Shown here one piece after another: positions 2,370 through 11,691 of a DNA stretch of 64,000 nucleotides; the first letter of the stretch is position 1; every line of letters starts with the position of its first letter. A program made the position numbers and the translations under genes. The notes under the pieces are model-generated. The model was given only the letters and a program-made list of their open reading frames with translations, was not told where the DNA came from and made no database searches. The stretch is taken from NCBI GenBank assembly GCA_026003935.1, contig BPIE01000002.1, positions 227,407 to 291,406 of the forward strand, written 5' to 3'. Origin of the DNA: Tepidiforma sp. Its GTDB lineage: Bacteria > Chloroflexota > Dehalococcoidia > Tepidiformales > Tepidiformaceae.

Positions 2370-4059
2370 ATGTCGGACCAAGAGCAGCTGGCTGAGGGGC
2401 AGGGTGCACAGGCGGAGCGGACGAAGGTGACCGCCTCAGTCCGGGGGAACAGCGTCATCATCGAGTTTCCGAAGGTGCAGGCACTGGTCGATGCGATGCG
2501 GAGCCTGCCGGTGAAGCGGTACGACTGGAAGACCCGGCAGTGGTCGGTTCCGCTGAAGTACGCGGCGGACGCGTTTCGGGCGCTGGACGCTGCGGGCGCG
2601 GATGCGGGCGACGTGGCGCGGGCGGCGGGGCTGCACGCAGTGCGTTCGGTGAATGCGGACGACGTGGTGTCGAGGTTCCCGGACCTGTTTCCGCATCAAC
2701 GGGAGGGGGTGCGGTTCCTCGCGGCGTCGCGGGGGGCGATCCTCGCGGACGACATGGGCCTCGGAAAGACGCGGCAGGCGATTATCGCGCTGGCGGAGCG
2801 GCGGCCGGACGGCGAGCTGCTCGTGGTATGCCCGGCTTCGCTCAAGCTGAACTGGCGGCGGGAAATCCTGCGGGTGTACCCGGGCGCCGAGGTGCGCATC
2901 GTGAATGGGCCCGATGCGGTGATTCCCGCGAGGTGGACCATCGTGAACTACGACATCCTGACACGGAAGAAGCCGGAGCTGGTGAAGCACCGCTGGGCAG
3001 GCGTCATCCTCGACGAGGCGCACTACATCAAGAACCCAGCAGGCGGCGCGCTCGAAGGCTGCGATGGCGATTCTCGGCCAGGTGGAGGATCGGTATCTCC
3101 TGACGGGGACACCGGTAATGAACCGCCCAATCGAACTATTCAACCTGCTGCGGGCGGTTGGGCATCCGCTGGGAGACGATTATGTGGACTTCGGGAAACG
3201 GTACTGCGCCGGCTTCAAGGACACGTACGGGTGGGACTTCAGCGGGGCATCGAACCTTGAAGAGCTGAAGGCGAGGACGGAAGGAACGATCCTTGCGCGG
3301 CGGAAGGAGGAAGTGCTCGACCTGCCGCCGAAACTGCGCACGACGCTGGATGTCGAGCTGGACCGGGCGCGCTACCGGGCGATGACGGAGGAGCTCGTGC
3401 ACCTGGCGCGGGAGCAGTACGAGCAGAATGGCGGGAATGTCCGCTGGAACGAGCTGCTGCCCGTGTTTTCGAAGCTGCGCCACGCCATTGCGAAGGACAA
3501 GGCGAAGCATACGGCTGCGCTCGTGGAGGACACGCTGGCGGGCGGCGAGAAGGCCATCGTTTTTACGAACTTCACGGCTGTGGCCGACATGCTGCAGAAG
3601 CACTTCGGGGACGCTGCGGTGCGGCTGACGGGCGAGACGGGCCAGGCGGCGCGGCAGGAGGCGGTCGACCGGTTCCAGGAGGACCCGGCGGTGAAGGTGT
3701 CCATCGGGAACCTGCTGGCGGCAGGTACAGGCATTACGCTGACGGCCGCGACGCAGGTGTTTTTCAATGACCTCGACTGGGTACCTGCGAATCACCTGCA
3801 GGCGGAGGACCGGGCGTACCGGATCGGCCAGCAGAAGATGGTCAACGTGTACTACGTGACGGCACCGGGGACGCTCGACGATGTGGTGTGGGGCGTGCTC
3901 GAACGGAAGCTGGCGGTGCTGGAAGCGCTGGACTACACGAAGCGCGGAGCCGAGGGTGCGGAGACGGGCAGGGTGAACGAGGAAGTGCTGGAGCGGCTGC
4001 TGCGCGACTTCGAGGTACCGCTCGACCCGACGTCGGAGGCCGGGGGGACCGATTCGTAG
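2370..4059 (+). pseudogene. SNF2/DEAD-like helicase split by a single frameshift
   Basis: ORF 2370-3260 carries DDMGLGKT and DEAHYIKNP; ORF 3064-4059 in another frame continues with RYLLTGTPVMNRPIELFNLL and helicase C motifs; shift near 3037. Confidence 0.85.
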
Positions 4060-8530: not shown

Positions 8531-9403
8531 TCAGCCGGGGCCGAGCCTCTCGAGGAGGCCTTCGACCTGGACGCCGGTGATGGGGCGGACAACCCGCCCC
8601 ATCCCGGTCCAGTTGGGCCATTTCCAGTCGCCGGTGGCGCGGGGCTGCTGGACGGGGAAGAGGACGGGGCGCTGGCGCGCCGCGAGCATGAGGTGGTAGT
8701 GCTCGCCGAGGGGCACGGTTTCGTTGACGAGACCGATCCAGCAGTTCATCTCTTCGCCAGGGAGGGCGAAGGTGGTGCCGAAGTAGCGGTAGTGACCTCC
8801 GATGGGGCGGGAGGCGCTGGCAACGTAGCGGACGGCGGGGCCGAAGCGCATGCGCAGGGCGGCGCCGATGAGTGCGTGGAGCCGGTTGGTCGAGAGCGCT
8901 TCGTCGAGCGGCACTTCGCCGAGGCCGAGGATGTCTTCGAGGACGAACTGGCGGAACTGTGCGGCGATAGGGTCGGGGTCGCCGTCGAGGGCTTCAACGA
9001 CTTCGTACCAGGTGATGGGGACCCAGGGTGCGGGGACGTCATCGCGGGGGAGGCCGAGCATGATGAAAGCGGGCGGCGCGCTCCACTGGCGCGCGATGGT
9101 CTCCATGGCGGGAAGCTGGGACTCATCGGCGCCGGGTTCGACCTGCACTTCGACGAGGATTCGGCGGCCGCCTTCGTAGGTGAGGAGGAGGTCGGCGATG
9201 CCGGCATCGGCGAGGCGCGGCTGGACTTCGACGAGGGCGAGGGGTTCGGTGCCGACGCCGGCGGCCTGAGCGAAGAGCGCGTTGAGCATCCGGTGGCCGC
9301 TGCGGAGGAAGTAGGCGAGAGCGCTGGTGCAGTAGTTTTCGAAGGGGCTTGCCTTGGAGCCCGGCCGATAGGCCGAGAGCATGGTGAAGAGGTTTTCGGA
9401 CAT
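8531..9403 (-). CDS. PD-(D/E)XK-superfamily-like protein (variant motif D..EVQV)
   Basis: FENYCTSALAYFLR N-terminus, then IADLLLTYEGGRRILVEVQVEPGADESQL, the arrangement seen in PD-(D/E)XK nuclease-like proteins. Confidence 0.55.
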   Translation of the reverse strand: MSENLFTMLSAYRPGSKASPFENYCTSALAYFLRSGHRMLNALFAQAAGVGTEPLALVEVQPRLADAGIADLLLTYEGGRRILVEVQVEPGADESQLPAMETIARQWSAPPAFIMLGLPRDDVPAPWVPITWYEVVEALDGDPDPIAAQFRQFVLEDILGLGEVPLDEALSTNRLHALIGAALRMRFGPAVRYVASASRPIGGHYRYFGTTFALPGEEMNCWIGLVNETVPLGEHYHLMLAARQRPVLFPVQQPRATGDWKWPNWTGMGRVVRPITGVQVEGLLERLGPG

Positions 9404-9445: not shown

Positions 9446-10855
9446 TCAGGCACGGCGGTAGACGCGGACGTCCTCACCGTCGACGTCGATACGGTCGACG
9501 ACGTCGCGCAGGGCGGCCTGGAGGTCGTCGAAGGGGAGGGTGTCCCAATCGCGGAGGAGGCGTTCGCGCTGCTGTTCGAGGTGGCGGCGGCGCTCGGCCT
9601 CGGATTCGTGGGCGCGGATGCGGTCGCGGGCGGCGGCGAGCTCTGCTTGGAGCTGGCGGTGTTCTTCGGCGAGGTCGGCACCGAGGGCCTTGAGGCGTTC
9701 GATGGAGATGTGGCCGTGGGCGGCATCGGCGACGAGCTCTTCGACCTGGCGGCGGTTGCGCTTGATGCGGGATTCGATGCGGTCGACCTGGGAGGCGAGC
9801 TCGAGTGCGTAGGAGTCGGCGTTGCCGGCGATACGGACGCGCGGGCCGGGGTGGTCGTCGCTGGCAAGGGCGTCGCGGACGCGAGCCTCGAGCTCGGCGG
9901 CGCGATGGGTGTTGTAGCCGCAGGAACTCTGGTTGGTGCGGGTCTCGCACTGGTAGTAGCGGTAGGTGGCGGTGCGGGATTCGCCGGAGCGTGTGAGCCA
10001 GGACTGGCGGCGGCTGACGCCGATCATCTTGTTGCCGCAGCGGGAGCAATAGACGAGGCCGCTCAGCAGGAAGGGGGTCACCGAGCGCTGGCGGGCCGGT
10101 GTGTGACGAGCCTGGAGGCGGTCTTGGACGCGCCGGAAGTCTTCGGGGGAGACGAGGGCGGGGTGGCTGTCGGTTACGGTGGTGCCGAAGCGGGAGTAGT
10201 GGCCGAGGTAGGCGCGATTCCGGAGGATGTCGCGGACGGTGACCATGCTCCAGCGGCCGCCGCGGCGCGTGGGAATACCTTCGTCATTGAGGCGGCCGGC
10301 GATTTTGCGGATGCCGAGGTTTTCGCTGAGGTAGAGGCGGAAGATATAGCGAACGACGACGGCTTCTTCGGGGACGAGCTCGAGGCGGCGGCGCGGGCCC
10401 ACGCGGTAGCCGTAGGGCGGGCGGCCAAGGACTTCGCCACGGACAGCTTTGCGGCGCATGGCGGAGCGGACGCGCTCGGAGATGGGCGTGCCTTCACCGC
10501 GTTCGGCCCAAGTATCGATGAGGGATTTGAACGCTTCGGTGCCATCGTGGGCCAGCAGGACGGTGGCGCCGCAGTGTTCAAGCTCGAGGAGACGGAGGGC
10601 GGCAGCGCCGAGGTCGGGTCCGAGGGCGGCGAGGGAATCGATGACGACGACGGTGAAGGTGCGACCCGGGCGAGCGAGGAATTCGAGGAGCTGCTGGAAG
10701 CCTGGGCCGGCTGCTTCATCGGGGTCGGCGAAGGTTGCGGCGACTTCGTAGCCGGAGCGCTGGCAGAAGTCGAGGAAGGCGCGATTTTGCTGGCCAAGGG
10801 TGCGTCGTTGGCCGTTGCGGCGTGCTGTGGCGGAGAAATAGCCGATGGCCTGCAC
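9446..10855 (-). CDS. Serine recombinase family homologue, probably catalytically inactive
   Basis: Recombinase domain (GIRKIAGRLNDEGIPTRRGGRWSMVTVRDILRNRAYLG), zinc ribbon YCSRCGNKM and C-terminal coiled coil; N-terminal catalytic motifs degenerate. Confidence 0.85.
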   Translation of the reverse strand: MQAIGYFSATARRNGQRRTLGQQNRAFLDFCQRSGYEVAATFADPDEAAGPGFQQLLEFLARPGRTFTVVVIDSLAALGPDLGAAALRLLELEHCGATVLLAHDGTEAFKSLIDTWAERGEGTPISERVRSAMRRKAVRGEVLGRPPYGYRVGPRRRLELVPEEAVVVRYIFRLYLSENLGIRKIAGRLNDEGIPTRRGGRWSMVTVRDILRNRAYLGHYSRFGTTVTDSHPALVSPEDFRRVQDRLQARHTPARQRSVTPFLLSGLVYCSRCGNKMIGVSRRQSWLTRSGESRTATYRYYQCETRTNQSSCGYNTHRAAELEARVRDALASDDHPGPRVRIAGNADSYALELASQVDRIESRIKRNRRQVEELVADAAHGHISIERLKALGADLAEEHRQLQAELAAARDRIRAHESEAERRRHLEQQRERLLRDWDTLPFDDLQAALRDVVDRIDVDGEDVRVYRRA

Positions 10856-10861
10856 GGGTGT

Positions 10862-11560
10862 CTACCCGACGTAAAGGATGCGCTCGCAGTTGGGGCACTG
10901 GGGAATGGCTGAGGGGTCGAAGGATTTGCGCCGGACGCTTTCGGGGATGGCAACGCGGCAGCCGGTGCAGCTGGAGCCCTGTATCCGGGCGACTGCGTGG
11001 CCGCGGCGGCGGCGTACGTCGTCGTACAGGCGAAGTGCCGCGGGAGGAATCCGCGCGGCGTGGGCCTCGCGGCGTGCGAGAGCCGCGGCGAGACGGGCTG
11101 CGTGGTCTTCGCGCCGGGCTCGAAGGGCGGCCGTCTCCGCCTCGCGTTCGCGGCGGGCTTCAGCGAGGCGTGCTTCTGCTTCGGCGCGAGCGGCGGAGGC
11201 CGTTTCGAGGGCTTCCATCACTTCGAGGAGGCGGTCTTCGAGGGCGCCGCGCTGGGTTTTGAGGTGTTCCACCTCGTGCTGGATGGCGGTGAGCTCCTTC
11301 GGATTGCGGACTGACCCGTCGTAGAGGCGCCGTTCTTCGGGAACGATCTTCGCATTGAGGTCGGCGATGCCGGCTTCGAGGTCGCGCTGGGACCGCCGAA
11401 GCTCCTGGTAGCGTGCGTCGGCCTCGTTAAAGGCGGCTTCTGACGCTGTGAGCGCCTCGGAATGGGCGAGGCGGGCGTCGATTTCGGCGAGGGCCGTTTC
11501 GAGGGCTGCCAGCTCGTCGTCGATTTCCTGGAGCGTGCGGAGTTCGGTGGTGAGCGACAT
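10862..11560 (-). CDS. Coiled-coil protein with C-terminal C4 zinc ribbon
   Basis: Long heptad-like region, then CTGCRVAIPE..CPNCERILYVG; RNPKELTAIQHEVEHLK is typical of this zinc-ribbon family. Confidence 0.8.
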   Translation of the reverse strand: MSLTTELRTLQEIDDELAALETALAEIDARLAHSEALTASEAAFNEADARYQELRRSQRDLEAGIADLNAKIVPEERRLYDGSVRNPKELTAIQHEVEHLKTQRGALEDRLLEVMEALETASAARAEAEARLAEARREREAETAALRARREDHAARLAAALARREAHAARIPPAALRLYDDVRRRRGHAVARIQGSSCTGCRVAIPESVRRKSFDPSAIPQCPNCERILYVG

Positions 11561-11691
11561 GGGCGGTTTCCGGAGGGCTAACCCTAGCGGCAAAGCCTAG
11601 GGTGCGCGCAGGGCCTGCTCAATGGCGGCGGGGCGGAGCGGGCTGAATCATCACACTTTTGCCGACGTTATGGCGTGGTTCGGGGCGAACT

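Follow-up and report, generated by a model that had tools for sequence, protein, structure and literature searches.

What keeps a serine recombinase gene on a bacterial chromosome once its catalytic residues are gone? As a rule, serine integrases belong to mobile elements, and their genes do not last long. In the window (the whole stretch of 64,000 nucleotides analyzed here, from a genome of the genus Tepidiforma, class Dehalococcoidia, Chloroflexota), an initial annotation described a homologue of the large serine recombinases (LSRs) that had lost its catalytic residues, and proposed that it was retained as a DNA-binding or structural protein and was not decaying at random. We refer to this protein as dLSR, and ask what it is by descent, how widely and how strictly it has been kept, and what it may do.

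Domain architecture and loss of the active site

The dLSR gene comprises the following features.

9446..10855, minus strand: catalytically dead large serine recombinase (dLSR), 469 aa, GTG start
10436..10855, minus strand: dead N-terminal resolvase-fold catalytic domain, residues 1-140 (AlphaFold2 model; profile matches to 1gdt, 3guv and 6dgc; PF00239 in 19/37 orthologues)
10823..10840, minus strand: remnant of Y-x-R-V-S, residues 6-11, YFSATA (R8→S, S10→T; alignment)
10613..10639, minus strand: remnant of LDRLGRD, residues 73-81, DSLAALGPD (positions of D67, R68 and R71 are A, A and P; alignment)
10109..10372, minus strand: Recombinase DNA-binding domain (RD), PF07508, residues 162-249 (Pfam), the most conserved part of the protein
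9866..10069, minus strand: zinc-ribbon DNA-binding domain (ZD), PF13408, residues 263-330, with Cys 270, 273, 303 and 312 (Pfam and alignment)
9611..9823, minus strand: coiled-coil hairpin within the zinc-ribbon domain, residues 345-415 (AlphaFold2 model; placed as in A118 integrase, PMC3783163)

The reading frame is uninterrupted and intact over 469 codons, as initially annotated. Pfam detects Recombinase (PF07508, 4e-23) and Zn_ribbon_recom (PF13408, 4e-12) in the window copy, and both domains in 37/37 orthologues. Resolvase (PF00239) has no Pfam match in the window copy and is matched in 19 of the 37 orthologues (best 3e-14); in the window copy this domain is too diverged for Pfam detection. 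The dLSR family profile aligns to γδ resolvase (1gdt) across the entire N-terminal domain (E 2e-4) and matches 3guv and 6dgc in the same domain. An AlphaFold2 model built on a 37-sequence alignment (pLDDT 84) shows an N-terminal domain folded like a resolvase, together with RD and ZD, and has residues 345-415 as a two-helix coiled coil. Its top Foldseek matches in the PDB are the DNA-bound SPbeta, Bxb1, A118 and phiC31 integrases (E as low as 1e-20). Over the whole chain TM is low, as differing domain orientations would produce; the N-terminal domain alone matches the catalytic domain of TP901-1 integrase (TM ~0.6 of target). Matches to the NCBIfam XisF/Ccr models lie below cut-off. By descent and architecture, dLSR is a large serine recombinase, and the annotated resolvase-like fold, Recombinase domain, zinc ribbon and coiled coil are all present.

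The active site is lost. Intact LSRs of the same class, used as controls, keep R8, S10, R68 and R71 in 20/20 cases. Aligned with these, the window copy carries the substitutions R8→S, S10→T, R45→G, D67→A, R68→A and R71→P, and retains Y6, the conserved Gln of SLxxQ, D36 and all four zinc cysteines (C270, C273, C303, C312). Both annotated motif losses thus held, namely the missing R8 and the Ser-to-Thr replacement in the Y-x-R-V-S region and the loss of D67, R68 and R71 in a segment reading IDSLAALGPD. Since the nucleophile S10 and the R8, R68, R71 set are absent, dLSR, judged by its residues, fails the defining test of a functional serine recombinase.

It could be argued that dLSR is still a recombinase that uses unconventional residues, because its fold and all DNA-binding parts are intact and C31 is conserved in 41/47 aligned members. 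We consider this very unlikely. Across the family, residues 1-120 contain no invariant Ser, Thr, Arg, Asp, Glu or His. C31, a residue of the first helix, is shared by 4/20 active LSRs, and it is in the N-terminal domain that the protein evolves fast. A catalytic Ser and Arg triad elsewhere in this domain would have refuted the annotated loss and none was found: in both Foldseek and HMM alignments the domain falls on resolvase and integrase catalytic domains, its active-site positions replaced, and a relocated active site was rejected on these grounds.

Distribution and descent in Dehalococcoidia

Full-length dLSR orthologues were identified in all five other Tepidiforma genomes (5/5) and in nearly all genomes of the family. 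Across the class, 169/294 genomes match the dLSR profile at E < 1e-40; after removal of 31 genomes with a best match below 200 bits, 138 were counted. Orthologues scoring above 200 bits are therefore present in at least 138/294 Dehalococcoidia genomes from 34 families, one per genome; the same profile gives ordinary LSRs of the class less than 175 bits. Among 47 aligned members, 20 keep none of R8, S10, R68 and R71, 25 keep one and 2 keep two; the complete set is found in 0/47.

A tree built on the DNA-binding region places the dead proteins in one clade (support 98/94), apart from the 20 intact LSRs of the same class. The dLSR clade thus has a single origin, and the active site is lost throughout. 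Within it, members of one GTDB family mostly cluster, as expected under vertical inheritance. We conclude that catalysis was lost before the dLSR families diverged and that the gene has been inherited vertically as an ordinary chromosomal gene. A mobile-element integrase should be patchily distributed and move with its element; dLSR fails this test, being single copy and at the same locus across families.

Orthologues outside Dehalococcoidia were sought in a sample of 349 genomes of the phylum Chloroflexota and rejected: outside the class, only ordinary LSR copies, with YTRIS and YRVDRL(C/S)R motifs, were found (genomes G382 and G339). The copy in G339 (locus L152) is an LSR with intact catalytic motifs split into two ORFs, an ordinary decaying copy that contrasts with dLSR. 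In the divergent lineages represented by loci L126 and L128-L131 (families f6, f54 and f67), the N-terminal domain of dLSR is almost unrecognisable and RD and the zinc ribbon are well conserved.

Selective constraint and DNA-contact positions

Within Tepidiforma, dN/dS of the whole dLSR gene is 0.06-0.16 by a simple NG86 estimate, with the lowest values in the helix E linker and RD. Distant dead pairs share 32% identity in the N-terminal domain versus 54% in RD-ZD, and all 461 pairs differ in that direction; active LSR pairs show the reverse (66% versus 47%). The reversed order indicates that constraint has moved from catalysis to DNA binding. Thus, dLSR is under purifying selection with an inverted domain constraint. 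At the level of sequence this lends good support to the proposed retention as a DNA-binding protein, with no experiment behind it. The least conserved region is the coiled coil (26% identity).

A decaying pseudogene or an assembly artefact, which the missing catalytic residues might suggest, is all but excluded. Intact ORFs occur in dozens of independent genomes and form one clade, the same losses recur in 34 families, and both the dN/dS values and the conserved operon synteny described below speak against a one-off decaying copy.

The A118 integrase contacts bases through Tyr207, Thr288 and Tyr297 (PMC3783163). Mapped via the alignment, the equivalent dLSR positions are W202 (47/47), W286 (45/47) and Y298 (45/47). 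Neighbouring positions are also nearly fixed (R282 in 46/47, R208 in 43/47, R222 in 44/47, and Q284), as are the Cys ligands, so that both the DNA-contact surface and the zinc site are intact. Most of the contact-equivalent and neighbouring positions vary or are gapped in active LSRs. The exception is W202, which is conserved in 18/20 active LSRs as well, so that this position alone says little. Judged from sequence alone, the pattern is that expected of a protein with a conserved target and is no proof of binding. An equivalence of M133 with A118 Met136 was dropped, as the spacing does not fit.

These positions also bear on an immunity-like decoy role, in which dLSR would occupy attB or form inactive heteromers and so block related mobile LSR elements. 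Active LSRs are present in many Dehalococcoidia genomes, and a dead relative could be dominant-negative. However, the contact positions that are nearly fixed in dLSR vary in mobile LSRs, long matches between dLSR and the resident active LSRs are mostly only 25-34% identical, and dLSR is kept in genome G000 (72.55% complete) without any other LSR match, other genomes likewise having one match only. We regard the decoy role as unlikely. PADLOC, searched for membership in a defence system, gave no match for dLSR.

The CT398-dLSR-RNase HI operon

Directly upstream of dLSR, in the same operon, lies the following gene.

10862..11593, minus strand: CT398/CdsZ-like protein with a coiled coil and a C4 zinc ribbon (PF24481, 2e-20; NCBIfam CdsZ, 2e-7)

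The CdsZ match falls below its NCBIfam cut-off. The ORF finder places the gene start at a TTG at 11593, and the ATG at 11560 is likelier. In 73 of the first 80 loci, a set that includes near-duplicates, dLSR starts within a few nucleotides of the CT398/CdsZ-like stop, with gaps mostly of 1-8 nt. A strict count in a mostly non-redundant set gives adjacency in 62/74 loci. The gap is 236 nt in one locus, and in some divergent families no CT398 gene could be recognised next to dLSR. No CT398 gene was found near the 20 active LSRs within the fetched flank of ~0.5-1 kb per side. In most Tepidiforma-related families the next neighbour is the divergently transcribed yceD-fabD-fabG-nusB-acp-tatBC cluster.

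The sequence downstream of dLSR was long enough to judge in 77 loci; in 39 of these the next gene is RNase HI, with its usual motifs in nearly all cases. Among 20 loci sampled from lineages that lack dLSR, 11 have RNase HI immediately after CT398. Both genes persist without dLSR in many Dehalococcoidia, which means that dLSR is not essential to them; and since many of these lineages have CT398 and RNase HI side by side, the recombinase gene probably began as an insertion into an operon that already existed, and was retained. The simplest history that we infer is insertion of an LSR between CT398 and RNase HI, loss of catalysis and retention of the gene, with a later loss of RNase HI in Tepidiforma, which kept dLSR. 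On a CT398 tree, which has weak resolution, dLSR must have appeared or disappeared 6 times. RNase HI (PF13456) was not found in the Tepidiforma genomes G000 and G005, though both keep dLSR; G000 is only 72.55% complete.

Many lineages related to these two genomes keep RNase HI beside dLSR. Tepidiforma lacks RNase HI at that position, and it alone has next to dLSR, on the downstream side, a 290 aa ORF (8531-9403, minus strand) that looks by eye like a PD-(D/E)XK nuclease and has no Pfam, NCBIfam or PADLOC match.

The gene order raises the possibility that dLSR is a DNA-bridging, architectural or genome-maintenance factor working with CT398 and RNase HI, for example at sites of RNA:DNA hybrid processing, where it would mark the DNA or hold it. 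In its favour are the CT398-dLSR-RNase HI order itself and the coiled-coil synapsis motif present in the AlphaFold2 model. An operon of a CT398-like gene and RNase HI also exists in M. tuberculosis (Rv2229c and Rv2228c; PMC7466739); the CT398 member is of unknown function in mycobacteria, and its M. tuberculosis homologue is reported to be essential (PMC5947703). Against it, genes that share an operon need not encode interacting proteins, no region is less conserved than the coiled coil, and the two Tepidiforma genomes without a detected RNase HI retain dLSR.

Candidate promoter elements

A conserved element precedes the likely ct398 start.

11576..11588, minus strand: GCTAGGGTTAGCC element, candidate operator or leader, conserved in Tepidiformaceae

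Its family-wide form, GCTAnGGTTAG, closely follows the inferred -10 of the ct398 promoter and has 0-2 mismatches in all Tepidiformaceae loci examined with flanks. The exact 11-mer core occurs once each in G000, G004 and G005, and the 11-base core of the window element has no second copy in the source genome, which is incomplete. Beyond this family the element was not found at better than 2 mismatches. Several other families have at the same place a different, unusually conserved 30-bp promoter or leader element, AGTCTATAATCCnGCnnCnnnnnTTGTCnA (16 loci), which is single copy in 4/7 genomes, those where it was found. Upstream of ct398 in loci L046-L070 the 30-bp element reads AGTCTATAATCC...TTGTCnA, again single copy in the 4 genomes where found. 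Where a locus has no dLSR, the region before ct398 contains neither element.

It is possible that these elements are operators for local regulation and that dLSR binds them, a hypothesis for which there are no binding data. In the corresponding reading, dLSR would be an autorepressor or transcription regulator: bound to a single operator across the ct398 promoter, and perhaps also over the divergent yceD-fabD-fabG-nusB-acp promoter, it would determine how strongly the locus is expressed. The position of the elements just downstream of the inferred -10, their single copy where found and their absence from ct398 promoters without dLSR support it. However, they are lineage specific and show no clear LSR-type dyad, so the operator stays a hypothesis; another factor or an RNA-level effect could account for them, and their absence in other lineages is confounded with phylogeny. 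On balance we regard a regulator as possible and less likely than not. A universal operator was rejected, since the Tepidiformaceae element is limited to one family and the second covers only 16 loci.

Proposed role of dLSR

The explanation that we consider likely is that dLSR is an ancient exapted, non-cutting, site-specific DNA-binding protein, possibly a DNA-bridging one; DNA binding, dimerisation, bridging, insertion history and biological output are inferred. In an early ancestor of the Dehalococcoidia, a mobile LSR would have integrated into the chromosome between the CT398-like and RNase HI genes and lost its catalytic residues, and selection would have kept it as a vertically inherited operon gene. 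The protein would act like an integrase halted at the stage of binding or synapsis: a dimer held by the dead N-terminal domain would read a fixed DNA site via RD and ZD and could touch a second DNA-bound dimer through the coiled coil, without cutting or joining DNA. As to its output, we slightly favour regulation of its own operon or locus over genome maintenance with CT398 and RNase HI, because the conserved promoter element is single copy in genomes where found; this preference is an inference.

Several observations weigh against this explanation. The binding site is unproven and has no experiment behind it. The promoter elements differ between Tepidiformaceae and other families despite nearly fixed DNA-binding residues, a poor fit with one universal operator. 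The badly eroded N-terminal domains of a few members (L126, L128-L131) mean that dimerisation through this domain may not be general. Finally, CT398 and RNase HI persist without dLSR, one locus has the 236-nt gap, and some families lack a recognisable CT398. A bolder reading, which remains no more than a possibility, is that of a class-wide DNA-bridging or regulatory 'frozen synapse' protein, derived from a phage-type integrase, that has CT398 and RNase HI as its partners at one fixed site of the chromosome.

Relation to known systems

dLSR shares a resolvase-fold N-terminus, a Recombinase domain, a four-Cys zinc ribbon and a coiled-coil insertion with large serine recombinases and integrases (SPbeta YokA, A118, phiC31, Bxb1; XisF and CcrA/B/C by NCBIfam). 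It differs from them in that S10, R68 and R71 are lost throughout as a set and R8 and R45 often, in being chromosomal, single copy and vertically inherited in a conserved operon, and in having DNA-binding domains more conserved than the catalytic one. Like the domesticated transposase-derived transcription factors FHY3/FAR1 of plants (PMC13306707), it represents a mobile-element enzyme turned host gene with the DNA-binding part kept; unlike them, it is bacterial and serine-recombinase derived, and its function is only inferred. Its operon partner belongs with CT398/CdsZ, HP0958 and MSMEG_4306, coiled-coil and C4 zinc-ribbon proteins (PF24481) with an RNase HI neighbour; a recombinase-derived gene between CT398 and RNase HI was seen here only in Dehalococcoidia.

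The open-licence PMC literature that we searched contains no description of this family, or of inactive or domesticated serine recombinases matching it, and prior mention elsewhere is possible. Within that limit, dLSR is a previously undescribed, ancient, exapted LSR spread across about half of Dehalococcoidia. The clade is a clear bacterial case of recombinase exaptation, in which loss of catalysis before family divergence was followed by strong selection in a conserved operon. It shows the binding and synapsis half of an integrase set apart for use by the cell. The clade is also a natural source of LSR DNA-binding modules that do not cut, and it opens the CT398(CdsZ)-RNase HI gene pair to experimental tests. 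If the bolder reading is true, dLSR would be a frozen-synapse protein of a kind not previously described in bacteria.

Elsewhere in the window, a HARP/SNF2 helicase gene appears as two overlapping ORFs in different frames (2370-3260 and 3064-4059, plus strand), a frameshift that is either real or an assembly error.
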